From Nitrospira sp. (GTDB lineage Bacteria; UBA10199; SBBF01): a stretch of 47,646 bases of DNA. The translations under genes and the position numbers were made by a program. Shown in pieces: positions 15,835-42,537 of the stretch. The notes under the pieces were generated by a model. That model searched no databases and was not told the DNA's origin. It saw only the letters and a program-made list of their open reading frames with translations. The first letter of the stretch is position 1, and the number at the start of each line of letters is the position of its first letter. The DNA lies in assembly GCA_005240075.1 (NCBI GenBank), contig SBBF01000074.1:1-47646 (forward strand), written 5' to 3'.

Positions 15835-18552
15835 ATGCTTTTGCCCGAATTAGAAAAATGGAGAGTTACCATCGAAAAAGAGGCGCGGAAGTGCGGCCTT
15901 GATTTTTTCGACACGATTTTTGAACTGCTCGATTGGAAGCAGATGAACGAAGTGGCGGCCTATGGCGGCTTTCCCAATCGTTATCCGCATTGGCGGTTTG
16001 GGATGGAATTCGAAAAACTCTCCAAAAGCTATGCCTACGGCTTGTCCAAAATTTACGAAATGGTCATCAACAACAATCCTTGTTACGCCTATCTTCTTCA
16101 CTCCAACCATCTGATGGATCAGAAACTGGTCATGGCCCACGTTTTTGGGCACTGCGATTTCTTCAAGAACAACATTTTTTTTCAGCACACCAACCGACAC
16201 ATGATTGACGAAATGGCCAACCACAAATCGAAGATCCAGCGCTATGTCAACAAATATGGCTACGAGGCGGTCGAATCATTTATTGATGTCTGTTTGTCCA
16301 TTGATAATCTGATTGACCACTATGCTCCCCTGATCAAAAGAACCCGACAGGATCCGGAAATAAACCCGGATGAAGAGGATATCGATGAGGAACGAAAGGC
16401 GGGGCATCATGTCAAAAAATTGAAGGTGAGCCGCGAATATCTGGATCATTACATCAACCCGAAGGAATTTATTCAATCCCAAAAGGAGGAATTATTGAAA
16501 AAATCAAGGGAGAGAAAAAAAATCCCCGAAGAGCCGGTCAAGGATGTTCTCTCTTTTCTTTTGGACCATGCTCCTCTGGACAAGTGGCAGTGGGACATTT
16601 TGTCGATGATCCGGGAGGAGGCCTATTATTTTGCCCCGCAGGGACAGACCAAGATCATGAACGAGGGGTGGGCCTGTGTGGCACCTGACACTCTTGTTTT
16701 TTCATCTGAGGGGCTCATTCCCATGAAAGCCATTGTTTTAGGGGGAGCGAAAGAAATATCGGACGGAAATGTTGCACAAAAGATTTATGGTCAAAATATG
16801 ATTAAAGACCATAGAACAATAACTCTATACACACGACGGGGGTTTAAACTGTGTGGTTCGGATAACCATCGTATTTTGAGTGAAGATGGAAAGAGTTGGA
16901 AACGACTTGATGAGTTGAAGATTGGAGATCAGGTTGCAATAAAAGGGGGACAAGGGTTATGGCCGAAGGATTTTATCAAAATTTCTTGGATACCCCCCTA
17001 TCGTTTTTCCCTTCAGGATGTTGCCACGGAGGCTCAAGTTTCCATTGATACAGTCATCCGTTATCGTGCGGGAAGGTCAATCAGGAATTCAACACAAGTT
17101 GCTCAGGCCATGGAATTGTACGATTCGTTGGAAAATCAGGATCTTCCCCAGGCTGTTAATAAAAGATTGCCGATTAAAATCCCGACTCATGTTACTTCTG
17201 AATTGGGATCTTTTTTGGGATATCTGGTTGGTGACGGCCATATTAGTCGGATCAAAAGACATGTTGGCATAACTACGGGTGACAAGGATCAAGCAGAATA
17301 TTTTAGTCAGTTATCATGCCGGCTTTTTGGTTTACTTCCTCGATTACGTTGGGACAAAGGTCGTTATCGCGTGTTGCTTCATTCTGAGGCGCTGTCTGAT
17401 TTCCTGGTACAATTTTTAAAATTAACCACGGGCCCTAGTGCGTCGAGTAAACAGGTTCCTGATCTTGTTTTGAGATCACCGGAGCCTGTTATACGTGAAT
17501 TTATTTCCTCCTATTTTGATTGTGATGCGTATGCCGGCAAACAGGGAGTGATTCTGAGCAGTACCAGTCGGCAGATGATTCAGCAGGTTCAGCTTTTGCT
17601 TTTGAACTATAATATTTTAAGCCGTGTTCGATCCCAGAAAGACGGATGTTGGCATTTGCACATTACGGGGAATTCAGCGGCAAAATTTGCGCAAAAAATA
17701 GGATTTCACCTGCGCCGAAAGCAAAAATCTCTTGAGAAATATGTGCAAAATCACCGATGGTTTAAGGAGGAAAGTTTTGTAGATCAGGTTGTTTCTCTTA
17801 ACCCTGGCCGGGGAGATGTTTATGACATATCTGTTGGGAATACACATCGTTATGTTGCTGCCGGATTAATCAATCATAATTCTTTCTGGCATTCCCGGAT
17901 CATGACGCAAAAAATTCTGAATGATTCGGAAATCATCGATTTTGCCGACCATCATTCCGGCACGGTGGCGGTCCAACCGGGGCGGTTGAATCCCTACAAA
18001 CTGGGGCTGGAGCTTTTCAGGGATATTGAAGAGAGATGGAACAAGGGGCGTTTTGGAAAAGAGTACGACGAATGCGACGATATGGTTGAAAAACTGAGAT
18101 GGAACAAAAATTCCGGATTGGGAGGGAAAAAAATTTTTGAGGTAAGAAAAATCTATAATGATGTTACGTTCATTGATGCCTTTTTAACGCGCGAATTTTG
18201 CGTTCAGCACAAACTCTTTGCCTTTGATTACAACAAAAACAGCTCGTATTACGAAATCTCCTCGCGCGAGTTCAAGGAGATCAAGGAAAAACTCCTTTTT
18301 TCCCTGACCAACTTTGGCCAGCCTTTCATATTTGTGCAGGATGCCAACTATGGCAACCGTGCCGAACTTCTCTTGTGGCATCGCCACGAAGGGGTCGATT
18401 TGAAGCTCGATTATGCCCGCGAAGTACTCAAAAATATTTATCAGATCTGGAAGCGCCCCGTGCTGGTTGAAACCAAAGTGGGGGACAAACTCAAAATTTA
18501 TTCCTTTGACGGCAAGGAACACCACGATGACGACACGAAGGAAGGGCTATAA
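15835..18552 (+). CDS. spoVR: SpoVR family protein interrupted by a LAGLIDADG intein
   Basis: 905 residues as translated. The N-extein (1-280) and C-extein (683-905) join to a 503-residue SpoVR, matching the roughly 500 residues of the family. N-extein marks include LEKWRVTIEKEARKCGLDFF, FPNRYPHWRFGMEFE and the HVFGHCDFFKNN segment. The insertion splits the conserved NEGWA / SFWH motif, so the intein must be removed to restore what looks like the active-site region. SpoVR supports the cortex in sporulating Bacillus; in non-sporulating bacteria it accompanies PrkA and YeaH with unknown biochemistry. The ATG at 15835 lies five bases after yeaH; an ORF start at 15790 inside yeaH was rejected. 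Confidence 0.93.
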   Translation: MLLPELEKWRVTIEKEARKCGLDFFDTIFELLDWKQMNEVAAYGGFPNRYPHWRFGMEFEKLSKSYAYGLSKIYEMVINNNPCYAYLLHSNHLMDQKLVMAHVFGHCDFFKNNIFFQHTNRHMIDEMANHKSKIQRYVNKYGYEAVESFIDVCLSIDNLIDHYAPLIKRTRQDPEINPDEEDIDEERKAGHHVKKLKVSREYLDHYINPKEFIQSQKEELLKKSRERKKIPEEPVKDVLSFLLDHAPLDKWQWDILSMIREEAYYFAPQGQTKIMNEGWACVAPDTLVFSSEGLIPMKAIVLGGAKEISDGNVAQKIYGQNMIKDHRTITLYTRRGFKLCGSDNHRILSEDGKSWKRLDELKIGDQVAIKGGQGLWPKDFIKISWIPPYRFSLQDVATEAQVSIDTVIRYRAGRSIRNSTQVAQAMELYDSLENQDLPQAVNKRLPIKIPTHVTSELGSFLGYLVGDGHISRIKRHVGITTGDKDQAEYFSQLSCRLFGLLPRLRWDKGRYRVLLHSEALSDFLVQFLKLTTGPSASSKQVPDLVLRSPEPVIREFISSYFDCDAYAGKQGVILSSTSRQMIQQVQLLLLNYNILSRVRSQKDGCWHLHITGNSAAKFAQKIGFHLRRKQKSLEKYVQNHRWFKEESFVDQVVSLNPGRGDVYDISVGNTHRYVAAGLINHNSFWHSRIMTQKILNDSEIIDFADHHSGTVAVQPGRLNPYKLGLELFRDIEERWNKGRFGKEYDECDDMVEKLRWNKNSGLGGKKIFEVRKIYNDVTFIDAFLTREFCVQHKLFAFDYNKNSSYYEISSREFKEIKEKLLFSLTNFGQPFIFVQDANYGNRAELLLWHRHEGVDLKLDYAREVLKNIYQIWKRPVLVETKVGDKLKIYSFDGKEHHDDDTKEGL
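16675..17880 (+). mobile_element. In-frame intein with LAGLIDADG homing endonuclease and HTH (SpoVR residues 281-682)
   Basis: 402 residues. It starts at Cys281 (CVAPDTLVFSSEG, splicing block A). Block B is GSDNHRIL with His345. A segment FSLQDVATEAQVSIDTVIRY (391 onward) reads like a LacI-type helix-turn-helix. The first endonuclease dodecapeptide is LGYLVGDGHI (Asp467); the second is REFISSYFDCDAY (554-566), with Cys where Gly is usual. Block F is VYDISVGNTHRYV, and block G ends LINHN before Ser683. Cys1, block-B His, penultimate His, terminal Asn and +1 Ser are all present, so splicing looks competent. The DNA is visibly more A/T-rich than the exteins, in line with acquisition. An Asp in each dodecapeptide suggests the endonuclease may still cut. 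Confidence 0.93.
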
Positions 18553-22424: not shown

Positions 22425-22667
22425 ATGAAAACGACCAAATATTTTGAATTTGTGAAAAAAAGGTCTGATAGGATTGAAATAAAAGATGCTTGGATTCAAA
22501 GAGTTATGGATAACCCTGAAAAAGAACAGGCGCAAAAAGATGGTAGGATCAGATTGTGGGGCAAAATAGATGAGGTAGGACGTTACTTGAGAGTGGTATT
22601 GCTTGCAGATCGTGAAACAGTGCACAATGTTTTTTTTGACCGAAATTTTAGAGGAGACAAATCATGA
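22425..22667 (+). CDS. DUF4258-like small protein, putative toxin partner of DUF2283 (module 1)
   Basis: 80 residues from the ATG at 22425. The pattern TKYFE ... W ... RLWGKIDEVGRYLRVVLL ... TVHNVFFDRNF matches its paralogue at 24912-25154 along the whole length. The fold resembles DUF4258/RelE-BrnT-like small proteins, but I assign this only tentatively. Its stop overlaps the DUF2283 start by 4 bases (ATGA), the usual coupling of a toxin-antitoxin-style pair. No ribosome-binding site precedes the ATG. A start at 22407 would add six residues. Confidence 0.65.
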   Translation: MKTTKYFEFVKKRSDRIEIKDAWIQRVMDNPEKEQAQKDGRIRLWGKIDEVGRYLRVVLLADRETVHNVFFDRNFRGDKS

Positions 22668-22900
22668 AAATAAAATATTTTGCTGATACCGATACCCTGT
22701 ATGTTCAGTTTAATGACAAAGAGGTAATCGAGACGAAAGATTTGGACCAAAACACACTCGTTGATATTGATAAAAGTGGAAATTTGGTTGGGATGACAAT
22801 CGAACATGCCAGTCAAAGCGCTACTCTTTCGGAGTTTACATTTCAGCAGATGAACCCCGGTTTTAGTGCTCATTCATTACATACCGATAACGCCAGTTGA
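22664..22900 (+). CDS. DUF2283 family small protein (module 1)
   Basis: 78 residues. The N-terminal two thirds show the DUF2283 pattern: MKIKYFADTDTLYVQF, then VDIDKSGNLVGMTIEHAS. It is a diverged copy; the C-terminal tail (NPGFSAHSLHTDNAS) is not shared with module 2. A good ribosome-binding site (AGAGGAGA) lies inside the end of the preceding gene. DUF2283 proteins are small beta-rich proteins often found beside DUF4258-like genes; an antitoxin role is inferred from position. Confidence 0.75.
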   Translation: MKIKYFADTDTLYVQFNDKEVIETKDLDQNTLVDIDKSGNLVGMTIEHASQSATLSEFTFQQMNPGFSAHSLHTDNAS

Positions 22901-23039: not shown

Positions 23040-23064
23040 AAAAATCATTCTCCCAATGATTTTT
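23040..23064. repeat. 10-bp inverted repeat abutting a sigma-54 promoter
   Basis: AAAAATCATT and AATGATTTTT form a perfect palindrome with the 5-nt spacer CTCCC. It ends inside the -24 element at 23063. It could terminate transcription from module 1 (stem followed by T) or be an operator. The rest of 22901-23039 is AT-rich and shows nothing further. Confidence 0.5.
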
Positions 23065-23079
23065 GGCCCGAAATTTGCG
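23063..23079 (+). promoter_or_regulatory. Sigma-54 promoter of the 526-residue protein
   Basis: TTGGCCCGAAATTTGCG agrees with YTGGCACGRNNNTTGCW at 15 of 17 positions, including the GG and GC pairs at the fixed spacing. The expected start is near 23090, 16 nt before the TTG start codon with AAGGAGG. Confidence 0.7.
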
Positions 23080-23105
23080 TAGAACATAAAAAAGGAGGAT
23101 GATCC

Positions 23106-24686
23106 TTGTTTAAGTTTAAGAAACATAGGCTTTATGAAATGATAAACGATCCCATTGCAATTAGCGCAGGGGGAGCTCTTCCGGACAATTATTATACGCC
23201 TGACGCTCCCCCGGTGCCGGCTGACGGAAGTAGAGAGGCTCCTGTTACTGATGGATCGGTGCCGGCGGACGGTGAAACTCCTGCCGACGAGACAGCCCCG
23301 CGAACGGATGGCGAAGCACCTCCTCCAACCGATGAAGGGGGGGGGGAAGCCACGATACTTGCTGATAATTACGATTATTCAACAGACGATTCAACTTCAA
23401 GAAAGACCACTTCTCTGCCCGACACAACCGATTCAGCAACCATGGCGCCGGACGACCAGCAAACCTGGTCGACATACGATGATTTGGTAAAGCGGGCCGC
23501 AGAAGGGGATACGGAAGCCCAGACCCTTCTGGACCAATGGGATTCCGGTAACCAGTTGGCGCAACAGACGGAAGATTTACAAGAGCAGATGGAGCAGTCC
23601 CGTTTTGTGGATGAAGAGGGCTCATCCGATCAGGAACAACTCTACGAAAAAGCGGTTTCTCAAGAGGCTCTCTTGAAGATGATGGAGAAAAGGGCTCGCG
23701 ATGCGGCTGGAAGACTTCCTCGCAACAGTCCCCTACGCGAAACCCTAATCAAACAGGCCGACCAGTTTGCGGCACAGCGAAAACAATTTGCCCCCAAGGT
23801 CCGTGCTTTCGAACAGAGACTGGAGGATGCCAAGAGGGGAGATATGCAAAAGCAGTATACCGCACTTGTGCAAAAGAAACAGGCGGGAACCCTTACGGCA
23901 GAAGAGAAAAAGGTCTTGAGACAATACGAAGGACGGTTTGGATCTTTCAAGGCGGGTGAGGCGGAACTCTATCAAAAAAAGCTTGATAAAAAAACAGCCC
24001 ACGAAACAGACAAGAAGAGGAGTGAAATTGAAAAAGAAACGAAAAAAGATTTTAAGCGAGCTGAAAAAGAGGCTAAAAAAGAAATTAAAGAAAAAGAAGA
24101 AGTCCTTGCAAGAGAGACTGTTCCTGAACCGGGAGATGCCGAAGTGGAGCAGGCTGAGCGGACTGTTGCCTCCAGATTGGGACAAGATCAGGTAGAGAAG
24201 AACAAAGAGAAAGCTAGCAAGCGGGCCGCTTTTTTAGCCTGGGCGCGGGAGAAGAAGGGGGAGATTGAATCGGGGGAGGCGACCGGCGATTCTGCCATGG
24301 CTTATTCGGTACTTTATTCGGCGGGATTGGCTGAATTGACCGGTTCCGGCAAAAAGGGGCAGGTGGCGGGATTGAAATTTTTGACCGGCGGTACTGCCCG
24401 ACAGGAATTGGATTCTATCGGAGCGCATGGTGATGCGCCCGAAGCCGTAGGGGCACAGCTTGCCGTGCCCGTGCCCAAACAAGACCGCGCCGCTACGATC
24501 CTGTCTGCCCAACCGGGAGATGAGGATTTTGACAAAAATCGCGCCGCGCTCAACGCTTTATATCAACAGCCCTCTGTTTTTCGGGGTGATGACGAGGATG
24601 GGGGGAGAGGTTTGTTCCGGTTTTTTGCCCCTTGGTCGGCTGGCCGCTTGCAGGGAACCCGCGGCCTTTCGGAACGCCGGGCGTAA
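23106..24686 (+). CDS. Large charged coiled-coil protein of unknown function (sigma-54 driven)
   Basis: 526 residues starting at TTG, chosen for AAAAGGAGG eight bases upstream. No signal peptide, no membrane segment and no domain I recognise. Residues 30-125 are Pro/Asp/Thr-rich and low complexity. Residues 130-400 are highly charged and probably long helices, including a K/E-rich stretch (about 298-345). The last 120 residues are more mixed (MAYSVLYSAGLAELTGSG; FRFFAPWSAGRLQG). The profile of disordered N-terminus plus coiled coil without a Sec signal would fit a secreted effector or a scaffold protein, but this is only an inference. A GTAGGGGC-type palindrome (24447-24470) is embedded in the frame. 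It is flanked by the two DUF4258-like/DUF2283 modules. Confidence 0.7.
   Translation: MFKFKKHRLYEMINDPIAISAGGALPDNYYTPDAPPVPADGSREAPVTDGSVPADGETPADETAPRTDGEAPPPTDEGGGEATILADNYDYSTDDSTSRKTTSLPDTTDSATMAPDDQQTWSTYDDLVKRAAEGDTEAQTLLDQWDSGNQLAQQTEDLQEQMEQSRFVDEEGSSDQEQLYEKAVSQEALLKMMEKRARDAAGRLPRNSPLRETLIKQADQFAAQRKQFAPKVRAFEQRLEDAKRGDMQKQYTALVQKKQAGTLTAEEKKVLRQYEGRFGSFKAGEAELYQKKLDKKTAHETDKKRSEIEKETKKDFKRAEKEAKKEIKEKEEVLARETVPEPGDAEVEQAERTVASRLGQDQVEKNKEKASKRAAFLAWAREKKGEIESGEATGDSAMAYSVLYSAGLAELTGSGKKGQVAGLKFLTGGTARQELDSIGAHGDAPEAVGAQLAVPVPKQDRAATILSAQPGDEDFDKNRAALNALYQQPSVFRGDDEDGGRGLFRFFAPWSAGRLQGTRGLSERRA
24447..24470. repeat. GTAGGGGC-type palindrome inside a coding region (copy 1)
   Basis: It starts GTAGGGGCAC and ends GTGCCC, giving a 6-bp stem GGGCAC/GTGCCC. 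A similar GTAGGGGC-headed palindrome is at 25414-25443. It is translated here as part of AVGAQLAVPVP. Confidence 0.4.
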
Positions 24687-24696
24687 TCAGAATCGG

Positions 24697-24915
24697 CTAC
24701 GCAAACATGGCTTGAGATTCAAGCGGCAATTTTTTCAGTATAAGTTCGTTGAGTTCGAGTTTTTTACTGGCATTGTCAATGTCAATTCCGACCAGTTGCC
24801 CTTGTTCATCGTAGTCCAGTACAACCCCTTCGGATATTTCCCTGCTTTCCGCACTTGGTTTTGAAGTCAAATCAATGTAGAGCGAATCGGTATCCGGATA
24901 ATATTGTAGTTTCAT
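24697..24915 (-). CDS. DUF2283 family small protein (module 2)
   Basis: 72 residues and a near-textbook DUF2283: MKLQYYPDTDSLYIDL, SAESREISEGVVLDYDEQGQ, LVGIDIDNASKKLEL. Its ATG overlaps the stop of the upstream DUF4258-like gene by 4 bases, and ACAGGAG provides a ribosome-binding site. It converges on the 526-residue gene with a 10-bp gap. It is better conserved than the module 1 copy, so the two modules are probably independent acquisitions or an old duplication rather than a recent inversion. Confidence 0.85.
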   Translation of the reverse strand: MKLQYYPDTDSLYIDLTSKPSAESREISEGVVLDYDEQGQLVGIDIDNASKKLELNELILKKLPLESQAMFA

Positions 24916-25154
24916 GGTTTGAATCTCCTGTCAAAAAAAGCATTATGAATGGTCACCTTGTCGTCAAGCGTTACCACTCTCAAAAAACGCCCTCCCATTT
25001 CCGGCACTGTTCCCCAAAAACGGTATCGGTTGTTTTCCTGTTTTTCGTGATGCAATGGACTTTCAATCACCTGGCAACACCACTCTTTTTTCAAATAGGG
25101 TCTTTTGCGCAATACTTCTTTTTCGAAATATTTTGTAAAACTGAAGCCAGGCAT
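24912..25154 (-). CDS. DUF4258-like small protein, putative toxin partner (module 2)
   Basis: 80 residues, paralogous to 22425-22667: FTKYFE, W at the same position, then RYRFWGTVPEMGGRFLRVVTL and TIHNAFFDRRF. It precedes DUF2283 in the same order and with the same ATGA overlap as module 1. A 6-bp palindrome, ACAATT/AATTGT (25162-25176), lies just before the start and could be an autoregulatory site. No ribosome-binding site is evident. Confidence 0.65.
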   Translation of the reverse strand: MPGFSFTKYFEKEVLRKRPYLKKEWCCQVIESPLHHEKQENNRYRFWGTVPEMGGRFLRVVTLDDKVTIHNAFFDRRFKP

Positions 25155-25229: not shown

Positions 25230-25302
25230 CTCAAAATGAGGAAAAAACTCCCCAAAGGAGCTTGAAATCAAAGAGATAGCCCTTTTTTCTTCTCATTTTG
25301 AG
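25230..25302 (+). promoter_or_regulatory. Paired palindromic enhancer-like sites for a sigma-54 activator
   Basis: CTCAAAATGAG (25230-25240) and CTCATTTTGAG (25292-25302) are the same 11-bp palindrome, centred 62 bp apart (about six helical turns). They lie about 95 and 157 bp upstream of the -12 element at 25392. The same palindrome recurs at 39704-39714 upstream of another sigma-54 promoter. G/C runs next to the two sites could also let the region fold back on itself. Confidence 0.6.
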
Positions 25303-25376
25303 GGGGGATATTTGTTAAATATTAAATAATATCAAATGCTTATTTTTTATTTTGCAAAAGAACATTGCCATGGAAC

Positions 25377-25393
25377 TTGGCGTGGAAATTGCA
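25377..25393 (+). promoter_or_regulatory. Sigma-54 promoter of the 614-residue protein
   Basis: TTGGCGTGGAAATTGCA agrees with the sigma-54 consensus at 15 of 17 positions with correct GG-GC spacing. The expected start is near 25404, about 75 nt before the ATG at 25479. Confidence 0.75.
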
Positions 25394-25413
25394 TACAATA
25401 GAGATATAGAGGT

Positions 25414-25478: not shown

Positions 25479-27323
25479 ATGACAGCTGTTAATTTCGAAA
25501 GTAGTGGTGTTCAAAAAGAAGCGTTGGATAATCTTGTAAGACAAGGCAATGTACAAGGGAAAGCCTTAGACGGTGATTCTGAAACTCTGGAACGTCAAGT
25601 CTATCAGCAGATCGGCGGAGTGGGTGAAGGGGGAGACGCGGCCGAAATCGCGGCAAAAAAAGAGCAGGAATTAAGATCGCTGATTGGGCAAAGACGGGGA
25701 ATTGATAAAGATGGAGACGGACAAGTTGACAGTGAAGTTGGATTTTCTGAGAAGAAAAGATTTTTAAGAAAGCCTGGTTTAGTCATTACAGAGTATGCTT
25801 TTTCAACAGACCCAGTCCAAGCCCAAGCCAGACAGGCCGAATTACAAGCCCAATGGACTGCCGATCAGGCTGATAGAGCGGGACTTGGTACGGTAGCTGC
25901 AGCTCCCGCACCCACAGCTACAGCAGAGCCTGCAGGAACTACTGATAAAGTCTCTGCCCAAAGGACTGCAAATACCGAATATCTCAAAAAACCGATTGAA
26001 GATAAATTTGGGGATCCCAAAAGAGATATGGTTACAGGGAGTCCCGGTGCGCTCGCTTTTGATGCAAGTCTTCCTGCTGATCAAGAAATGTCAGCCGCCG
26101 GAGCCGCGGCTTTCAAGGCTGGTAAGGCTATGGGAATGACGGATGAAGCGGCTAAAGTCTACGTGCGTGATGTGTTGGCAGAGTATCCGGACAATGCCAA
26201 GGGGGTTTTGTCCCGCGTTAATTCTGATTTTACCAACGATCAACAGGCTGGCACCCGCCGAACAGGTCCGGTGGACCAATATGAAAACCCCGAGGCTTAT
26301 GCCCGTTTACGGGTTGGAACCAAAAAAGAGGATGTCGAAGCTTTTGAAGAAGGATGGTCGGAAGAGGCCCCTGAAGGTTCAGCTGTTGATAAATGGGCCG
26401 CCGTCATGGGGGCTGATTCCAACGTGAGAGGGGATGAATACCTCGACGGATTATTCGAAGGTTCTTCCAAAGGTGTGAGCGCCCGGGAAGTGGGCGAAAT
26501 TGGCGGGGAGGGGGTTTATGCCACCAAAGACCGCCGCGAGGAAGTGGGCAAAATTGCCGATACGATCAGGGAGGAAAGACTGGCCGATTTGCGTCAAGAT
26601 TTAGGGTTGGAGAAGGATGCCGATCTGGATGCTGAAAGAAAAAAAGTGGAAGAGTACCTGGCAAAGACAGATTTGTCTGAGACAGATAGAAAAAATTACG
26701 AGGCACAGCTTAAAAAACTGGATGAAAGAAGGGCGCAGATTGACGCCGATATCCAGGATGCCATTGCGAATCCAGCCAAGTTGCAAAGAATGAGTGACGG
26801 CCGGTTTAAGGCTTCCAAGCATGAAAAAGCGGCGGCGGCCAAGGCCAGAAGTGAAGGAGAGGAAACAGACTATTCCAAAGTGAGAAAAGGGGCTGAAGAA
26901 TTTTCTTTTTGGACCGGAAAAGCCAAAGAGGCTTTTGGTTATGTCCAGCAGGGGATCGAATTTTTCCAGAAGCAAGCTGATCGTATGGCAAAAGGACTGG
27001 AAAAAATAGGGGAACAAGTGGCCGGGCAAATGGGCGAACTTCTCAAAGAAGCCACAAGTCGGGAAGCCCCCCCAGAATTTATCAAAGGGGGCACCGAATT
27101 CAATCCTGCCGAGGTCACGGAAGGAACTGCGCGGTCGGCGCTTCAGAGAGGAGCTGTTGCTGGTACAGCCCCCGAAGCCCAGCCGGGCAACATGCTGGCT
27201 AAGGCCAATCATGTGGAACAACCGGGTCCCGACGGCAAAAAGAAAAAGAAACGAACTTTTGACTTAGAAGACTTAAGATCCCAAGTGCAGGCCCAGCGGG
27301 CGATTGATCGGTATACGGTGTAA
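25479..27323 (+). CDS. Large charged protein of unknown function (sigma-54 driven)
   Basis: 614 residues from the ATG at 25479, which has GAAGGAG seven bases upstream; a TTG at 25464 would add five residues. No signal peptide or membrane helix. Residues 76-87 (DKDGDGQVDSEV) resemble an EF-hand or dockerin calcium loop but lack the acidic residue at position 12. Residues 110-160 are Ala/Gln/Pro-rich; 350-480 are charged and helical; about 485-540 form an amphipathic helix region (FGYVQQGIEFFQKQ ... GEQVAGQMGELLKE). The C-terminus is basic (KKKKKRTFDLEDL). Function unknown. It resembles the 526-residue neighbour in composition and in promoter type, so the two may be exported or act together. 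Confidence 0.7.
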   Translation: MTAVNFESSGVQKEALDNLVRQGNVQGKALDGDSETLERQVYQQIGGVGEGGDAAEIAAKKEQELRSLIGQRRGIDKDGDGQVDSEVGFSEKKRFLRKPGLVITEYAFSTDPVQAQARQAELQAQWTADQADRAGLGTVAAAPAPTATAEPAGTTDKVSAQRTANTEYLKKPIEDKFGDPKRDMVTGSPGALAFDASLPADQEMSAAGAAAFKAGKAMGMTDEAAKVYVRDVLAEYPDNAKGVLSRVNSDFTNDQQAGTRRTGPVDQYENPEAYARLRVGTKKEDVEAFEEGWSEEAPEGSAVDKWAAVMGADSNVRGDEYLDGLFEGSSKGVSAREVGEIGGEGVYATKDRREEVGKIADTIREERLADLRQDLGLEKDADLDAERKKVEEYLAKTDLSETDRKNYEAQLKKLDERRAQIDADIQDAIANPAKLQRMSDGRFKASKHEKAAAAKARSEGEETDYSKVRKGAEEFSFWTGKAKEAFGYVQQGIEFFQKQADRMAKGLEKIGEQVAGQMGELLKEATSREAPPEFIKGGTEFNPAEVTEGTARSALQRGAVAGTAPEAQPGNMLAKANHVEQPGPDGKKKKKRTFDLEDLRSQVQAQRAIDRYTV

Positions 27324-32152: not shown

Positions 32153-33795
32153 TCCAGACTCCCCTGTTAACCCGACGTGATTTTATCAGAGCTGGTTTTT
32201 ACGGGGCTTTGTTTCTTTCTTGTGGAAGTCAACTCAATACTTTTTCATCCCTCTTTCCAACCGATGCCGACCCCGTAGCAACACTTCTTGATTTAACCTC
32301 TGAAGAATTTGCCGGTGATGAGGAAACGATTCCCCACGACGTGCTCCGTTTTGGGAAGGGAAGAAATCTTTCAATTCATTCATCTGCAAAGCACAATCTG
32401 GTGATTGTAGGGGGGGGTATGGCCGGTCTCTGCTCCGCTTATTTTCTTAAAAAATACAAACCGGTCGTTTTGGAACAGGCCGAACGGTTTGGGGGAAACA
32501 GCAAGGGGGAGGAATGGGAGGGGATCCCTTATTCCATTGGTGCCGCTTACATCACGGTTCCGGAAAAAGGCTCTGTGATCGAAAATTTTTTGGGTGAATT
32601 GGGCATTCTTTCCATGGGACGTATGGAATCGGGAAGGGAAGGGGCTGTTGTTCTGGATAGAGGGGAATTGGCAAGGGGTTTTTGGCAGGGGGCCACTGAT
32701 CCTTCCCAAAAAAGTTCCTTCGAAAAAGTGTTGCAAAAATTCAACTCTGTTTATGAAAAAGGTTATCCTTCCATCCCTTTTGATCCGGAAGGTTCTCTCG
32801 GCGAATCGGAGTGGAAAAATCTGGAGGAAATGACTTTTGCGCAATGGATTCTTCGGGAGTTGCCCGATCTCCACCCGCACATTCAGGAATTTCTGATTCA
32901 ATATTGCTGGTCTTCCTTTGGCGGGGGGGCGGACGAGATTTCAGCGGCTCAGGCTCTCAATTTTATTTCGGCCGATTTGCAGGGGACACTCGCTTTTCCG
33001 GGAGGAAATTCGGCCATCACTCAGGCTCTCTACAGGAAACTCAAAAAAAATATCGGTTCATCTTGTCTTCGATCCCGTTCTGTTGTGACAGAGATTGCCC
33101 TTCGCAAAGAAGGGGTATCGGTTACTTATAGGGATGAAAAGGGGCAAAAAAATGTTATCGAAGCCAAAGTGTGTGTTGTGGCGCTTCCCAAATTTGTCGC
33201 CAAACATATCATGCCCGACTTGTCTTTAGAGCAGAAAGAGGCGATGGCTCAAATCCGTTATCGGGCTTATCTGGTGGCCAATGTGTTGATAAAGGGAAAA
33301 ATCACTTCTCCCTCTTATGAACTCTTTCGATTGACTAGAACAATCCCCCGCAACAACACCGATGATTTATTGTCCCGCCCTTTTACCGATCTGATCTTTG
33401 CCAACTGGGTGCGACAGGATGAAGGGAATCATTCTGTTTTGACTTTGTATAAAGCGTATCCGTTTGAGGGGGGGCGATTTAAGTTTTTGGAACCCGATTT
33501 TTACCAAAAGGCCAAAGAGGATTTTGAAAAAGGATTTTCCGAAATTTTATCCGCCTTGAATTTGTCTCCTTCCCGAATTGCCGGAATAAGGATCGCCCGG
33601 TGGGGGCATGCTCTTCCGTTGGCCACGCCGGGATTTTTGTCTTCCGGCCTGGTTCAGAAAGCGTGCGCTCCGCTGGGAGACAAAATTTTTTTTGCCGAAC
33701 AAGACAACTGGGCCAACCCCTCTTTTGAAACCGCCTTCGATGAAGCTCAAAAAGTGGCAGAAAACGTCAACCGTTTGACTTCTTTATCATTTTGA
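32149..33795 (+). CDS. Tat-exported FAD-dependent amine-oxidase-like protein
   Basis: 548 residues. The N-terminus [21 protein letters not shown] is a twin-arginine signal, and SCGS could also be a lipobox. The Rossmann FAD motif is [21 protein letters not shown], followed about 20 residues later by [12 protein letters not shown]; a C-terminal FAD-contact segment ([30 protein letters not shown]) matches flavin-containing amine oxidase / protoporphyrinogen oxidase-type proteins. The substrate is unknown. It is translationally coupled to clpB by ATGA. It is the last gene before the sigma-54 region. Confidence 0.85.
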
Positions 33796-33894: not shown

Positions 33895-33911
33895 TTGGCA
33901 TACCGTTTGCA
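33895..33911 (+). promoter_or_regulatory. Sigma-54 promoter of the 183-residue protein
   Basis: TTGGCATACCGTTTGCA matches the -24 (TTGGCA) and -12 (TTGCA) elements with exact spacing. The expected start is near 33922, 43 nt before the ATG, which has AAAGGAA. No CTCATTTTGAG palindrome is seen upstream. Confidence 0.72.
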
Positions 33912-33964
33912 TATTCATCTCATTAAGGGGTCAAATTAAACATTTTAACGAAAGGAAATGGCTT

Positions 33965-34516
33965 ATGTCTGATACTAAAATAACTGAAAAATCACCACCA
34001 TCTGCAACGGATATTTCAACACCTGCCACTCCGCCAGCCGAGCCTCAAGCTCCAGCGATACCGCCAGCTCCTGCAACCGAAACAGCTCCTGGAATGGCTC
34101 CCCCAACGCCGGACAAGGTTCTGGCCGAAAAAATGGGAACTTCCACAGGTACAGTCGGTGGCCCTTATGGGCAACCAAGGGCAAGACCGACTGCCAGCAA
34201 TCTTTATTATGCCAAAGACAAAGCAGAAAAAGATTTAAAAACAGTATTTCAGTCAGCCTTGGCAATGAACCGCTTGGAATCTACTCCTGGCCTTGCTCTT
34301 CACGGGAGTGCGTTCTTCGATCCCTCGACCGGACGTCTGATGTATGTGCAGGTTGATAAGGCGGATGTTTCATCGGACGTTGTTCAATCTTTTCAGAGAT
34401 CTGCCAGGAGAGTTTCTCTTCCAACATCTCCCGATATGAAAGTTGAATATGAGGGGGAAGGTCCTGTCAAAACAATCAAACCGATTGTAGTTCCTTTCCG
34501 TTTCATAACGGTTTAA
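33965..34516 (+). CDS. Pro/Ala-rich protein with a TonB-C/AgmX-like C-terminal domain (sigma-54 driven)
   Basis: 183 residues. The first 75 are a Pro/Ala/Thr-rich, probably disordered linker with no signal peptide or membrane helix. Residues about 85-183 read L..HGSAFFDPSTGRLMYVQV, then DVVQSFQRSARRVSLP and a final VVPFRFITV. This spacing (DP-TGR-V, a helix, then a VPFRF-type last strand) resembles TonB C-terminal / AgmX domains, but I assign it only tentatively. It converges on the transglutaminase-like gene with a 3-bp gap and has its own sigma-54 promoter. Confidence 0.6.
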   Translation: MSDTKITEKSPPSATDISTPATPPAEPQAPAIPPAPATETAPGMAPPTPDKVLAEKMGTSTGTVGGPYGQPRARPTASNLYYAKDKAEKDLKTVFQSALAMNRLESTPGLALHGSAFFDPSTGRLMYVQVDKADVSSDVVQSFQRSARRVSLPTSPDMKVEYEGEGPVKTIKPIVVPFRFITV

Positions 34517-34519
34517 AGA

Positions 34520-35479
34520 TCAGGAAAAAAGTTCCGGATATTTTTTTTGAAGAACCGATTCTGCTGAGGGAAAGATCGCTGTCGCTTTTTCAAAAAGGGT
34601 TTGAGCCAGGTTGTTATTATTGTTTTCCGTGTAGAAATCGATTCCGGCAATCATCACCGGATAACTTAAAGGGGCCAGTTTCAAGGCGGTTTCAATCCAT
34701 TTTCTCTTTGCAGACGAATCGACAGATTCATTTTCCCAATACTGATTGACATGCCAGCGGGCGATAAATTCACTGAATGATATCGGCACGGAGATGGCGC
34801 CGTTCGGTTTTCTTCCAAAATAAGGGCGTGCCGGATCGACAATATAGGGGTCTGTCGAACCATCCTTCATATTAACAGCCAGACGGACATGGTTGACCGG
34901 ATTTCCTCTTTCATCATAGGAGACCCCTTGAGGGAAAACCTCAAATCCCGCCATCAAAAGAAGCCCCAGATAAGGGGTATCTATTCCCTGGCATCTGCCT
35001 CCTCCTTCGAGAATTGTCCCGATGGCATCGGCTGTGGGAAGAAATTCCGTGGCAGACAACTGCCATTCATGGCCTGCCCGAAGAATCAGAGTGTCTATGT
35101 TATTTGATGAGAGGATTATTTCCCTTGCCCGTTCTTCAATTTGTTGGTCCGCGTCGGTGAGAGGGTTGTAATCATTAAAGAGATAAGGAATCTGAATTCC
35201 AGTCAAACGATCCAGCTCTTCCGCCCTTTTCCATTGGCCTAAAGGATTTTTGTTAATCTCTCTCAAAGTCCATTCATAATATTCCTGCGGTGTAATTATC
35301 CCGTCTGATTTCCCGTCGTATTTTGCCTGGGGCTCAGAAGGGTTAGTCAAGTCTGTATACAAGACCCCCTGATCCAGTTCTGAAAGGGGGGTATTGGAGG
35401 GAAGCCAGCTGTTGCAATGCAGATAAGCTCCTCTGTCTTGCTGTTTAAAATGGCCGCAAATCGATGAGGATGAATTCAT
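34520..35479 (-). CDS. Transglutaminase-like (papain-fold) protein, second gene of a sigma-54 operon
   Basis: 319 residues. Residues 150-220 show a transglutaminase-like core with the ordered triad Cys163 (GGGRCQGIDTPYLGLLLMAGF), His197 (NPVNHVRLAV) and Asp215 (YIVDPARPYF). Such proteins can be proteases, crosslinkers or peptidases. With the ATG at 35479 there is no signal peptide. In-frame codons just upstream encode NLFLFI but offer no standard start codon, so the true N-terminus is uncertain. It lies 16 bp after the cysteine-rich surface protein and should be co-transcribed; processing or crosslinking that protein is a plausible, unproven role. Confidence 0.65.
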   Translation of the reverse strand: MNSSSSICGHFKQQDRGAYLHCNSWLPSNTPLSELDQGVLYTDLTNPSEPQAKYDGKSDGIITPQEYYEWTLREINKNPLGQWKRAEELDRLTGIQIPYLFNDYNPLTDADQQIEERAREIILSSNNIDTLILRAGHEWQLSATEFLPTADAIGTILEGGGRCQGIDTPYLGLLLMAGFEVFPQGVSYDERGNPVNHVRLAVNMKDGSTDPYIVDPARPYFGRKPNGAISVPISFSEFIARWHVNQYWENESVDSSAKRKWIETALKLAPLSYPVMIAGIDFYTENNNNNLAQTLFEKATAIFPSAESVLQKKYPELFS

Positions 35480-35495: not shown

Positions 35496-38400
35496 TTATA
35501 TTTTTCTTCTTATCGGCAGGATGAGGAATAAGTTGCTTAAAATCAACATGAAAAAAATGGGGGCTGAAGCTGCTGGATTAATTGATCTTTTTTGAAGCAA
35601 ACAACCTCCTCCCCCTTTGGCCTCGATGCCGTATTCCAGGGGAACAAGTATTTTGGTGCAGGTGGAGCTATCTGAAAGTTCAAAGTAAACAACAGTGTTT
35701 TCGCCAGACGATTCAGAGGCAGAAACGGTCAGTCCGCAAATAGTGTCTGTATTGCCTGCCTCGTAATCTCGTACCTCTTCCAATGTAGGTTCGCAGTTGT
35801 TGGCTTGTTCGACTTCATCGGTAGTGGAGGTGAGCATATCACAGGCCGGTACCGCCTCTTCTTCATCAGGATTGTCAAATTTTTCTTCGCCCTCACTAGC
35901 TGCTTCTTCAAGGGTACCGGTGGAATCTGTTGTTGTATTGTTGTTGGTACAATTTTCATCAATGGTGCCATCGCAATCATCATCAGTGCCATTGTCACAG
36001 GTCTCTGTCAAATCCCCGCAAGTGCCGCAGGCGTTGGTGACCCCTTCATCAACTTCATTGTCGCAGTCATTATCGGCTCCATCACAGGTTTCCTCGGCCG
36101 GCTGGCATTCTTCCGGTTTATCCATGCAGACCTGGGCCTCAATTTCGGTATACTGCCCACTTTCCCCTTTTTCCGAGACATGAGAATCGATGTCATGATT
36201 ATTAAGACGGTTTTGCGCCACAGCAGTCAGCGTTTGCGCCACTTTATCGAAAAGGTATGCGGTCTGAAACTCCTGGTTTAGGACAATCGGATTGTTCGAT
36301 GTGTCAAACCCAACGACCTCCATTCCTTGGAGTACCTGCAGGTTCGTTGTTCCCGAGTTCGCCAGATCCAACCGGACGACATTTCCCCCGCTGTCTTCCA
36401 TATACAGTTGAGCTTTGCGGTCTGCGTTTAAGCGGTTGATCGTGTCCGAGTTGTCGATAGCGTAAGTGACCGTCATCGTTCCCTGATCAGTATCCCGACA
36501 TTCAAACCCGACTGAAGTCATGAGGCAGGAGGCAAGCTGGGATTCTTTTTCATCAGGACATTCCGGCTTTTCATGGATCATGCATCCATCACAGCACCAT
36601 TGATCGTTGCTGGTGAGGCCATCCGTTCCGTCGCATTCTTCGTTCCCTTCTTTAGTGCCATTTCCGCACTCTTCAGCCACCAGTTGGCACTCTTCGCATG
36701 TTGGATCGGTCGTGCCGGGGGCTGGGTCACATTCTTCTGTCCCTTCCACAACGCCGTCGCCGCAGACAATTTCCTCACAAGCGGTTGTGCATCCATCGGT
36801 GTCATCCGAATTTCCATCGTCACATTCTTCTCCTGTATTGACAATCCCGTCTCCACAGGTGCCGCAGGCATTTCCCGCCGCGCTTGAAACTGTTGTATAT
36901 TCACAGCCGCTGGCGGTATTACAAGAATCGGTGGTGCAATCATTGCTGTCATTGCAGTCAAGGGCTGTTCCATCCTGGCAGGTAGAACCGGCCGCCGCCG
37001 AGACACAGGTTTCCGTGCCGTTGCACACATTCCCATCATCGCAGTCGGAATCGGAGACACAGCAATTATCGATGGGGGTATTGACCGCTTCTCCGTTACT
37101 GCAGCTGTCGGTTGTACAGGAATTGCCGTCATCCACATCGATCGGTGTGTGGGAAACTGTTCCAGAAGTCGGGTCACAGGAATCGGTGGTACAGGGATCA
37201 TCGTCGCTTGTCTCAATAGGAGTATGACTGGTGCCCGTTGAAGGGTCACAACTGTCAATCGTACAGGCGTCTCCATCATCGGTATCGACCGGAATATTGC
37301 TCACGGTTCCCGTTGTTGTATCGCATGAATCAATTGTACAGACGTTATTGTCATTGGGATCGATTGTTGTCGTCGAACAGGTTCCCGTAGCAACCCCATT
37401 GGTTCCACTTTGTCCCAATACACATTCTTCAGTAGTACAGGCGTTGCCGTCGTCGGCACAGTCATTGTCTGTCATACAGCAATCATCGATGGGACTATTG
37501 ATTGGATCTCCTGTTGCGGGATCGCAACTATCGGTTGTGCAGGTATTTCCGTCGTCAGGGTTAGATGGTTCGTGCAGACATTGACTGGTGGTCGTAGCAA
37601 TGTTGAAACTGCAGGTATCCGTTGTGCAGGCATCCCCGTCATCGCAATCGGTATTATCAAAACAGCAAGTTTCCGGATCGAGGCTGTTGTCGGCAGTCCC
37701 ATCGCAATCATTGTCTTGTCCGTCGCAGACTTCCTGGGTTGGTTGACAATCGGGTTGGCCCTGTTCCACTGGGTCAGTCGGTTTGACGCAGTAACCCCAT
37801 ACTCCCTCAGCTGAACAACCTTGGGAGCCTCCGCTCCAATAACCCTGACTGTTGTCATTTTCAGCTTTACAGTCGGGGTATTTGGGATCGCCGTAAGGGC
37901 ATCCCTCCGTTGAATCACATTCCTCCTGGGTTCCAGGTACACAGGGGATGGTGCAATTCATCGTGCAATCATCGCCATTGGCTGTATTTCCGTCGTCGCA
38001 TTCCTCTCCCGTATCGACAATTCCGTTGCCGCATGTCTGAGGAATATTTGAATTGGCCTGTTCGGTTGTCTCACCTGAATCAAACGTTGCCCCACATCCC
38101 TGCCATCTGTCGAGACTTGTTGAGCCAGTAGCCTCGGGCGTTTCCATCATCTTCAGATCATCTGTTGTGAGAGTGTAGGTTTGACCCGACGCATACTTGT
38201 TGTCCTCTCCTGAAATAAAATAAGTTTTTCCGTCATTGAGGCCGCTTGCAACGAGGGCTTTGACATCAGTGCGCACTGTAACAGCCGAAGGGATAAAGGG
38301 AACATTCAGGATCGTTGTGGCTGAATCGAGTGTTGCCGTATCGGGAGTGGGGGATGTCAACTTCGAGGTATCGATGAGCATGATCTGGTTTTCAGCCGAG

Positions 38401-39545
38401 TTTGTGAAAATGAGCATATTTTCATGGAAAATCCCGTCAGGGCTTTCCAAGGAATAGCCTCTTTGGTTCAAGTAAGATTTTGCATCGATTTCTCCCGATT
38501 GATTATCTTTCACGTTAGTTGCTTCGCTTGTGGCCATCGTTTTGATGATTCCATGTGAAGTCATTCCGACCAGCTTTCCGTCCGAAGTCATCGTAATCCA
38601 TTTCATCGGTTCACCAAAATCGAGCGTTTCTGAGATTTGTTGGGTTCCGTCAATATCGTCAATTTTTCCGTTCGTATCGAGAACATAAACATGGTCTGTC
38701 CCGCGGGTTAAATCGGCAATCTTGACCCCTTCTGGCATATCGATGGTGATAGTCTGAACCGCATAATTCTTGATTTCAGTCGAACCCTCGGACACCGGTT
38801 CATTCATGATGAAATGGAGGTGATTGTCATGTCCCCAAATAAGAGCTTGATAGGAGGAAGGATCCGCCGTGATTCCTTTGACATTCTGATATCCGGTGGC
38901 CTGTATGACCAGTTGACCATTTTCATTGTAGCAAGCTATCTGGCTTTTTTCTGTGGAAGCAAAACAGCCGATGCCTTGCGAAGATTCTCCTGAGGGGCAG
39001 GTGAAGGTGGGGATTTGATCACAAATATCGCTGACGCCGTCTTTGTCTGAATCAGCCCCATCATCCACTTGTCCATTGCAGTCATTGTCCTTCCCGTCGC
39101 AGACTTCGGGGTTTCCCGGAAACATCGTAGAATCCTGATCGTTGCAGTCATCATTGTTGGTAACAACTCCATCCTGGATTACGCAGACTGAAATCGGATT
39201 TACCGGGTCTCCATGACCATCTCTGTCATTATCAGGATAGACGATTGATGTGCCGATATCGGCCTCTTCCGTGATTCCATCGCAGTCGTTATCAATTCCC
39301 CAATCGCTACATGTTTCCTGTTGTGGAATGCACTTGGTACCGTTTGTTGTTGCATTGGTTTTGGGGGCCACTGTCTGATTCGCTGTCGAGATTTGGGGAG
39401 CAGCTAAATTTTGTGAAGGAGATATTTTTGTAGCGTCTGTTGATTGGGTTTGAGCATGAAGCGAGGAAGAGCGTGCTATTAAAAACAACCCCGCAATCAC
39501 AACCCAAGCGATCGAAACCCTTTTCCCTCTAAAAAAAGGTGTCAT
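35496..39545 (-). CDS. Giant cysteine-rich surface protein (MopE-like and myxobacterial disulfide repeats) with C-terminal sorting tail
   Basis: 1349 residues. A signal peptide covers about 1-31 (VIAGLFLIARSSSLHAQ). A first MopE-type block (about 77-175) has DNDCDG and CDGKDNDCNGQVDDG calcium-type loops. Residues about 190-480 are a Cys-poor domain that may be a propeller. Then follow repeats of CGNGIVDTGEECDDGN, about eight units of the type DDGNxCTTDSCDxxTG, two more GEECDDGN/EECDP blocks, and ETCDGADNDCDNEVDEG near the end. The C-terminus is GGGGCLLQKRS, a hydrophobic helix and IRRKI: a Cys - transmembrane - basic tail like MYXO-CTERM-type sorting signals. Expected to be exported, disulfide-bonded and surface-attached. 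It has its own sigma-54 promoter and heads an operon with the transglutaminase-like gene. Confidence 0.85.
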   Translation of the reverse strand: MTPFFRGKRVSIAWVVIAGLFLIARSSSLHAQTQSTDATKISPSQNLAAPQISTANQTVAPKTNATTNGTKCIPQQETCSDWGIDNDCDGITEEADIGTSIVYPDNDRDGHGDPVNPISVCVIQDGVVTNNDDCNDQDSTMFPGNPEVCDGKDNDCNGQVDDGADSDKDGVSDICDQIPTFTCPSGESSQGIGCFASTEKSQIACYNENGQLVIQATGYQNVKGITADPSSYQALIWGHDNHLHFIMNEPVSEGSTEIKNYAVQTITIDMPEGVKIADLTRGTDHVYVLDTNGKIDDIDGTQQISETLDFGEPMKWITMTSDGKLVGMTSHGIIKTMATSEATNVKDNQSGEIDAKSYLNQRGYSLESPDGIFHENMLIFTNSAENQIMLIDTSKLTSPTPDTATLDSATTILNVPFIPSAVTVRTDVKALVASGLNDGKTYFISGEDNKYASGQTYTLTTDDLKMMETPEATGSTSLDRWQGCGATFDSGETTEQANSNIPQTCGNGIVDTGEECDDGNTANGDDCTMNCTIPCVPGTQEECDSTEGCPYGDPKYPDCKAENDNSQGYWSGGSQGCSAEGVWGYCVKPTDPVEQGQPDCQPTQEVCDGQDNDCDGTADNSLDPETCCFDNTDCDDGDACTTDTCSFNIATTTSQCLHEPSNPDDGNTCTTDSCDPATGDPINSPIDDCCMTDNDCADDGNACTTEECVLGQSGTNGVATGTCSTTTIDPNDNNVCTIDSCDTTTGTVSNIPVDTDDGDACTIDSCDPSTGTSHTPIETSDDDPCTTDSCDPTSGTVSHTPIDVDDGNSCTTDSCSNGEAVNTPIDNCCVSDSDCDDGNVCNGTETCVSAAAGSTCQDGTALDCNDSNDCTTDSCNTASGCEYTTVSSAAGNACGTCGDGIVNTGEECDDGNSDDTDGCTTACEEIVCGDGVVEGTEECDPAPGTTDPTCEECQLVAEECGNGTKEGNEECDGTDGLTSNDQWCCDGCMIHEKPECPDEKESQLASCLMTSVGFECRDTDQGTMTVTYAIDNSDTINRLNADRKAQLYMEDSGGNVVRLDLANSGTTNLQVLQGMEVVGFDTSNNPIVLNQEFQTAYLFDKVAQTLTAVAQNRLNNHDIDSHVSEKGESGQYTEIEAQVCMDKPEECQPAEETCDGADNDCDNEVDEGVTNACGTCGDLTETCDNGTDDDCDGTIDENCTNNNTTTDSTGTLEEAASEGEEKFDNPDEEEAVPACDMLTSTTDEVEQANNCEPTLEEVRDYEAGNTDTICGLTVSASESSGENTVVYFELSDSSTCTKILVPLEYGIEAKGGGGCLLQKRSINPAASAPIFFMLILSNLFLILPIRRKI

Positions 39546-39579
39546 TATTACTCATCAATCCACCCGCCAATCTACAGAA

Positions 39580-39596
39580 TGCAAAACAAATGCCAT
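39580..39596 (-). promoter_or_regulatory. Sigma-54 promoter of the cysteine-rich protein operon
   Basis: On the minus strand ATGGCATTTGTTTTGCA contains TGGCA and TTTTGCA with the correct GG-GC spacing. The expected start near 39569 leaves a leader of about 24 nt. Confidence 0.7.
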
Positions 39597-39702: not shown

Positions 39703-39755
39703 TCTCATTTTGAGAATATTCTCTTTATGAGAATGTTGAATTGAGAATGTTGAAT
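39703..39755. promoter_or_regulatory. Palindrome cluster, likely sigma-54 activator sites, plus 14-bp tandem repeat
   Basis: TCTCATTTTGAGA (39703-39715) runs into the palindrome GAGAATATTCTC (39712-39723). Two exact tandem copies of TGAGAATGTTGAAT follow (39728-39741, 39742-39755). The CTCATTTTGAG core is the same as the pair at 25230-25302 and lies about 125 bp upstream of the sigma-54 promoter at 39580. The cluster also sits just upstream of the divergent ffh promoter, so it may act on both. Confidence 0.6.
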
Positions 39756-41859: not shown

Positions 41860-42537
41860 ATGATTTTTCATGTTTTGACTTTATTTCCTGAAATTTTTCC
41901 TCCTTATCTTTCAGCAGGAATTTTGGGAAAGGGAATCGAAAAAAAAATCATCCAGGTTCATCTCCATCAGCTCCGGGATTATGCAACCGACAAACATCGT
42001 TCCGTCGACGACCGCCCCTACGGCGGGGGGAGCGGGATGGTTCTCCGGCCCGATGTCGTGGTGAGAGCTGTTGAAGCCATTCGAAGCGCCAATGAAATTG
42101 ATCGTGTTGTTTTACTTTCGCCGCGTGGGCGGCTTTTTTCGGATGGTATCGCCCGGCAATGGACGGGCCAAAATCTTCTCCTGATTTGTGGCCGCTATGA
42201 AGGGATCGACCAGCGGGCGATTGACAAAGTGGTGGATGAAGAACTTTCCATAGGCGATTACGTCTTGACTGGCGGAGAACTGCCAGCGTTGGTGGTGGTG
42301 GATGCTGTCTCTCGTTTTATTCCCGGAGTTGTGGGGAATGAGGCAGGCCCCAAGGACGACAGCCACACTACTGGCTTTTTGGAATATCCCCATTACACCC
42401 GACCGGAAGAATTCGAGGGGAGAAAAGTGCCCTCGGTTCTTCTGTCCGGCAATCATGCCGAAATTGAAAAGTGGCGGCGGGAACAGGCCTTGTTGATTAC
42501 GCAAAAAAACAGACCTGATTTGTTGCAAAAAAAATGA
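41860..42537 (+). CDS. trmD: tRNA (guanine-37-N1)-methyltransferase
   Basis: 225 residues. It makes m1G37 using S-adenosylmethionine and prevents +1 frameshifting. The trefoil-knot SPOUT signature is intact: [42 protein letters not shown] and [20 protein letters not shown]. The start is separated from khpA by a terminator-like stem. The stop overlaps the next gene by 4 bases (ATGA). Confidence 0.97.

Follow-up and report, generated by a model that had tools for sequence, protein, structure and literature searches.

The window considered here, the whole analysed stretch of 47,646 nucleotides, is a complete contig (SBBF01000074.1, C19) of the 1.96-Mb genome of Nitrospira sp. (GCA_005240075.1), which is assembled in 117 contigs. 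Scanning of both strands with the sigma-54 -24/-12 pattern TGGC-N7-TTGC returned five exact matches. The element TGGCGTGGAAATTGC at 25378..25392 (+), with an off-consensus -24 box (TGGCG) and a predicted transcript start near 25404, stands before the first gene of this promoter (25479..27323, +), which encodes a charged, soluble orphan protein of 614 amino acids; no Pfam or PDB match was obtained for it, nor any relative in 39 genomes of the class or in a scan of GTDB contigs. A consensus-type element, TGGCATACCGTTTGC, lies at 33896..33910 (+), its predicted start falling near 33922, with a Pro/Ser/Thr-rich protein of 183 amino acids (33965..34516, +) under it, for which the 39 class genomes held no relative. 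The latter protein had been described as TonB-C-like, a likeness not borne out by profile searches, which gave no Pfam match at E ≤ 1 and no NCBIfam match, TonB_C included.

The third element, TGGCATTTGTTTTGC (39581..39595, minus strand; predicted start near 39569), is likewise of consensus type and heads a minus-strand operon. Its large gene (35496..39545, −) encodes a predicted exported protein of 1349 amino acids with 88 cysteines, in which MopE-type and myxococcal disulfide repeats were recognised (NCBIfam TIGR02232 at 46 bits against a cut-off of 20.8; Pfam MopE and Dicty_CTDC repeats). The preliminary description had seen here a cysteine-rich surface operon, and the protein indeed appears to be of the myxococcal Cys-rich exported type, judging from its repeats and hydrophobic N-terminus. 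A C-terminal Cys-TM-Arg tail may also be read from its sequence; the MYXO-CTERM sorting model of NCBIfam gave no match, though the tail, GGGGCLLQ...TM...RRKI, resembles this signal by eye. The second gene of the operon (34520..35479, −; 319 amino acids) had no family match in Pfam or NCBIfam, and inspection by eye suggested a Cys-His-Asp arrangement in it (GGGRCQG...NHVRLAV...YIVDPA), reminiscent of transglutaminase-type peptidases. Single-sequence AlphaFold models of this protein and of the 33965-34516 product were too poor for use (mean pLDDT 42).

A fourth, doubtful element, TGGCCCGAAATTTGC, is an exact match at 23064..23078 (+) with an off-consensus -24 box and a predicted start near 23090. 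It is abutted by a perfect AT-rich palindrome of 23 bp, AAAATCATT-CTCCC-AATGATTTT (23041..23063), which supplies its T-rich flank. Downstream of it, a gene with a TTG start and the ribosome site AAAGGAGG (23106..24686, +) encodes a charged orphan protein of 526 amino acids, for which no Pfam or PDB match and no relative in the 39 class genomes was found. It should be added that this gene is flanked by similar two-gene cassettes in opposite orientations (22425-22900, +, and 24697-25154, −), each with one small protein and one that looks DUF2283-like by eye. The fifth match, absent from the preliminary description, is at 42156-42170 (−), within a tRNA methyltransferase gene (41860-42537). Elsewhere in the window, a SpoVR-like gene with an intein (LAGLIDADG domain) adjoins PrkA and DUF444 genes (15835-18552, +), and an exported protein of 919 amino acids with four cadherin-like/Big_9 repeats is encoded at 1187-3946 (+), with no sigma-54 site before it.

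All four sites of the preliminary description were thus found, its ranges carrying one surplus base at each end. Its chance level of one or two matches per window was reproduced by shuffling (expectation 1.7, sd 1.4), and so were its distances of 10-90 bp, the sites ending 27, 86, 54 and 35 bp before the start codons (23064, 25378, 33896 and 39581, respectively). Five matches were reached in 4 of 100 shuffles; the bare count is therefore only mildly unusual and by itself weak evidence. Significance comes from position, because only 4.3% of the window is promoter-position sequence and four of the five matches fall in it, each within 300 bp before a start and in the correct direction, as had been claimed. 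Other spacers from N3 to N11 gave none or one promoter-position match in the window. A one-mismatch scan of the pattern did not rise above chance, and weaker sites were consequently left out of the set.

For scoring, a weight matrix was built from 40 consensus promoters genome-wide. It ranked the four sites first to fourth in the window (33896, 24.2; 39581, 19.4; 23064, 17.7; 25378, 15.8), the best match in the reversed window being 10.8; two of the four belonged to the training set, and in leave-one-out scoring both still lay within the range spanned by the remaining promoters. The 840,714 coding positions gave 8 scores of 15.8 or more and the fetched intergenic sequence gave 43, as against none in its reversed control. 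All four window sites have the exactly spaced GG and GC of TGGC-N7-TTGC ahead of a gene, and the observation of four such sites is confirmed.

The gene rpoN, whose absence had been named beforehand as fatal to a sigma-54 reading, is present (Sigma54_DBD, E=3e-64). About eight strong matches to enhancer-binding proteins (EBPs) were also found, with EBPs carrying GAFTGA or GSFTGA, so that the genome possesses the sigma-54 machinery. A genome-wide scan for -24/-12 sites, one of the checks proposed in the preliminary description, gave 127 occurrences of TGGC-N7-TTGC versus 48 of the reversed pattern; the excess falls mainly in the TGGCA class (65 versus 8 reversed; remainder, 62 versus 40). The sequence surrounding each of the 127 sites, amounting to about a quarter of the genome, was read, and genes were called in it with a hexamer model. 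Promoter position was assigned to 41 sites by the automatic calls and to 33896, which those calls had masked, 42 altogether; 40 of these begin with TGGCA, and in 39 the next base is C or T. Outside the window, the fetched stretches contain 38 promoter-position sites with the N7 spacer and 0-2 with any other, so that both a promoter class and its spacing specificity are established computationally.

This class is conserved. TGGCAY-N5-TTGCW is in excess in all 40 genomes of the class examined, with 46 versus 1 occurrences here and 48 versus 0 in G001, a genome from another genus of the same family, where 41 sites are in promoter position. Of the first genes, 15 of 40 had a homologue in G001 at the head of a sigma-54 operon, compared with 9 of 391 other genes (OR 25, p=1.6e-11), and the promoter pairs conserved between the two genomes include those of rpoN, amtB, sctV, several lipoproteins and proteins of no known function.

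Of the 62 TGGC[CGT] sites of the genome, only 23064 and 25378 are in promoter position, which is no more than chance for that class, and each of the two therefore needs independent support. One might accordingly take both for chance matches and only 33896 and 39581 for real promoters, the more so as the T-run of 23064 is supplied by a terminator-like palindrome. Against this, their scores lie far above the controls: at the coding-sequence rate, only about 0.04 sites scoring at least 15.8 (25378) and 0.005 scoring at least 17.7 (23064) would be expected in the promoter positions of the window. Furthermore, 25378 is supported independently by two exact copies of a palindrome upstream, as described below, while 23064 has no such support. 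We thus regard it as unlikely that both are fortuitous; 23064 taken singly is more likely a weak or spurious site than a member of the regulon.

Upstream of the -24 boxes, a dyad search together with reading of the window revealed three palindromic elements, defined as E1 (CTCAAAATGAG, at most one mismatch), E2 (GTCA-N6-TGAC, exact) and E3 (CGTCCGA-N3-TCGGACG, at most three mismatches). E1 precedes 9 of 42 promoters here, 7 of 41 in G001 and 5 of 15 in G002, a further related genus; the corresponding numbers are 8, 5 and 4 for E2 and 7, 18 and 3 for E3. Means of the permuted controls, which are imperfect as some resemble the motif, were 0.2-0.7, 0.03-0.16 and 0.1-0.3, respectively. Discovery and testing of the elements drew in part on the same promoters, with the two related genera as the main check, and part of the sharing reflects descent, given the kinship of these genomes. 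Enrichment across the three genera lies at about 72-185 bp upstream of the sigma-54 sites for E1 and E2 and at 56-185 bp for E3. Within the fetched stretches, 10 of 19 E1 and 8 of 16 E2 matches are at most 300 bp from a sigma-54 promoter, although such regions make up about 5% of the sequence. Palindrome enrichment upstream of the promoters is thus evident from these counts.

The window has three copies of E1 and one of E2, all upstream of the sites under study, and none of E3. Two E1 copies precede 25378, at 25230..25240 (+; 148 bp upstream) and 25292..25302 (−; 86 bp upstream), and the third, at 39704..39714 (−), is 119 bp upstream of 39581 in a divergent intergenic region. The E2 copy, GTCAACCGTTTGAC at 33766..33779, is 130 bp upstream of 33896 and inside the preceding reading frame, at its 3' end; one chance E2 match per window is not unusual, which weakens this instance. 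Candidate activator sites at about -80 to -200 are therefore present for three of the four sites, and E1, E2 and E3 are all absent upstream of 23064. It should also be mentioned that the best G001 counterpart of the Cys-rich protein 35496 (locus L231), weakly similar to it (E=1e-6), has a -24/-12 site and an E1 with one mismatch.

The palindromes could also be transcription terminators or other hairpins: the inverted repeats are AT-rich, and the E1 copy at 25286-25308 scores terminator-like. Nevertheless, intergenic E1 copies in the fetched stretches are, ten out of ten, within 300 bp of sigma-54 promoters and nowhere else, distances cluster at 72-184 bp with pairs often 17-19 bp apart, the identical E1 sequence recurs in two other genera, and the genes on either side of the window E1 copies diverge, so that a terminator would not be expected there. 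We therefore consider the terminator explanation very unlikely, and the palindromes likely to be activator sites.

Across 98 promoters, E1 and E2 occur together in 8 (OR 4.6, p=0.009), E1 and E3 in one and E2 and E3 in none, and the wider regulon accordingly has at least two enhancer codes, E1/E2 and E3, which exclude each other almost completely. The former is found mainly upstream of exported and Cys-rich proteins; the latter precedes sctV and orphan families in G001 and, in the present genome, an orphan operon located near sctV. Since 25378, 33896 and 39581 carry the co-occurring E1/E2 elements, they look like one surface-type programme. Two loci may be noted in this connection. In G001 (locus L205, C32), neighbouring sigma-54 promoters with near-identical E3 copies at about -107 precede different orphan genes for soluble proteins, behind each of which a small exported protein is often encoded. 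At G000 C66:9000-16203 (L235), three different EBP genes stand in a row, adjoining a gene for a STAS-type small protein, and part of the regulon may be controlled from this locus.

The second check proposed, for gene-function enrichment, showed first genes to be richer in N-terminal hydrophobic segments (20 of 40 versus 74 of 274, p=0.0035) and in lipoboxes (6 of 40 versus 5 of 274, p=0.0008). Among the regulon members are rpoN, amtB-glnB, a PilB/GspE-like ATPase, many lipoproteins, many proteins without a known family and two sctV genes, both above the SctV cut-off and both with sigma-54 promoters; one SctV has its nearest named relative, 77% identical, in a groundwater genome labelled Deltaproteobacteria. 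Moreover, one regulon operon with an LcrH/SycD-like chaperone adjoins an FHA-type EBP gene. The system looks injectisome-like because the genome yielded one ring protein of SctJ type and no second FliF-like match. FliM-, FliN- and FliO-like genes lie beside sctR/sctS/sctT (L241, G000 C27), and a separate SctJ locus has a TPR chaperone (L234, G000 C113); together these two loci appear to represent an injectisome-like system with flagellum-like export genes. Sigma-54 control of sctV as a general rule was rejected, the SctV loci of Sutterella, Succinivibrio and Desulfobacterales having no site in the fetched flanks; among the loci compared, a site outside the set of this genome was seen only in a close relative of G001. 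EF-hand loops were likewise rejected as a feature common to regulon proteins.

These secretion genes bring in the interpretation put forward in the preliminary description, according to which all four sites, 23064 included, would form one regulon of secretion substrates, for example type III exported ones. The presence of the two sctV genes and the chaperone operon in the regulon speaks for it, as do the N-termini of soluble first genes, richer in S/T/N/Q/P/G and poorer in K/R than those of other soluble proteins (p~0.003, 16 versus 153), and the two large orphans without relatives, as is often the case for fast-evolving substrates. As evidence, the N-terminal composition is weak: in 25479 and 33965 it would be compatible with type III export, in 23106 it is not. 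Furthermore, the window has E1/E2 and not the E3 of the type III genes, whose code is absent upstream of 25479, 33965 and 23106 alike; no enhancer accompanies 23064; and the N-terminus of 35496 is of Sec type, which excludes it as a type III substrate. A single substrate regulon thus seems improbable to us, and the window genes fit a surface programme better than a type III programme because E1/E2, and not E3, stand upstream; it is possible that the orphan proteins of the window are secreted substrates. As to the co-regulation claimed, the sigma-54 regulon is real, enriched in exported proteins and inclusive of secretion genes, and three of the four sites share E1/E2; the unity of all four does not hold, since none of the enhancer classes is represented upstream of 23064, whose -24 box is off-consensus, and the regulon has at least two codes.

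Three, possibly four, of the window sites hence belong to a genome-wide sigma-54 network for surface, secretion and lineage-specific proteins. In our reading, 25378, 33896 and 39581 (−) are probably working sigma-54 promoters under EBPs bound at E1/E2, in a surface-type sub-regulon, with 23064 likely outside it. RNA polymerase carrying RpoN would form a closed complex at the -24/-12 element, and an AAA+ EBP seated on the palindromes 86-148 bp upstream would loop over and drive melting. E1 would serve 25378 and 39581, and E2 would serve 33896. Together they would mark a sub-regulon of Cys-rich anchored proteins, lipoproteins, small exported proteins and the PilB-like ATPase, while a separate, E3-marked sub-regulon would comprise the type III secretion genes and orphan candidate substrates. 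We infer protein binding, transcription, the pairing of EBPs with palindromes and the roles of the genes from the DNA.

Control of the bacterial exterior by sigma-54 has already been established as a generalisation (Francke et al. 2011, PMC3162934), and in concordance with it sigma-54 promoters here precede lipoprotein, envelope and transport genes, amtB-glnB and rpoN. Unlike that theme of exopolysaccharide, flagellar and lipid genes, derived from cultured species, no FliF was found here and orphans are many. In Chlamydia trachomatis, the sigma-54 regulon comprises type III genes and chaperones, Cys-rich envelope proteins and hypothetical proteins, and was studied through one activator, CtcC (Soules et al. 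2020, PMC7482065). Type III secretion and chaperone, Cys-rich and hypothetical proteins are under sigma-54 sites here as well, whereas the lineage is unrelated, about eight EBPs and three upstream codes are present, and surface and type III genes have different codes. As in non-flagellar type III systems (Abby and Rocha 2012, PMC3459982), the genome has SctV twice, SctR, SctJ and an LcrH-like chaperone, none of its type III secretion genes being in the window; FliM-, FliN- and FliO-like genes beside sctR, scattered loci and sigma-54 sites on both sctV genes set it apart.

Over 18 sites, namely the box GTCA-N6-TGAC at 33766-33779 and 17 other promoter-upstream sites, E2 reads GTCAA-N4-TTGAC. 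Its half-sites and spacing are identical to those of the FleQ enhancer box of Pseudomonas, GTCaNTAAAtTGAC (quoted in PMC6120874), a likeness that is not evidence of a shared regulator; unlike the FleQ box, E2 is paired here with E1. The name FleQ was not returned for any of six EBPs in NCBIfam, or for five of those and one fragment in Pfam; contig ends truncate additional EBPs. What is new in this system is the lineage and the orphan content, together with E1 and E3 as apparently new elements.

For this uncultured class, it may tentatively be proposed that sigma-54 is the main lifestyle switch, by which E1 and the FleQ-box-like E2 would deploy fast-evolving Cys-rich surface and orphan proteins and E3 an injectisome-type system with its substrates, the orphans of the window representing contact or delivery proteins of a new class. 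In uncultured lineages, the majority of proteins have no homologues and are of unknown function; a strong promoter class and the conserved codes upstream of it allow such orphans to be sorted by their regulation, which is beyond the reach of sequence homology. Furthermore, the parallel with Chlamydia, in which type III secretion and a Cys-rich envelope likewise come under sigma-54, in an unrelated lineage leads to a testable prediction, namely that these bacteria may engage in contact with other cells.
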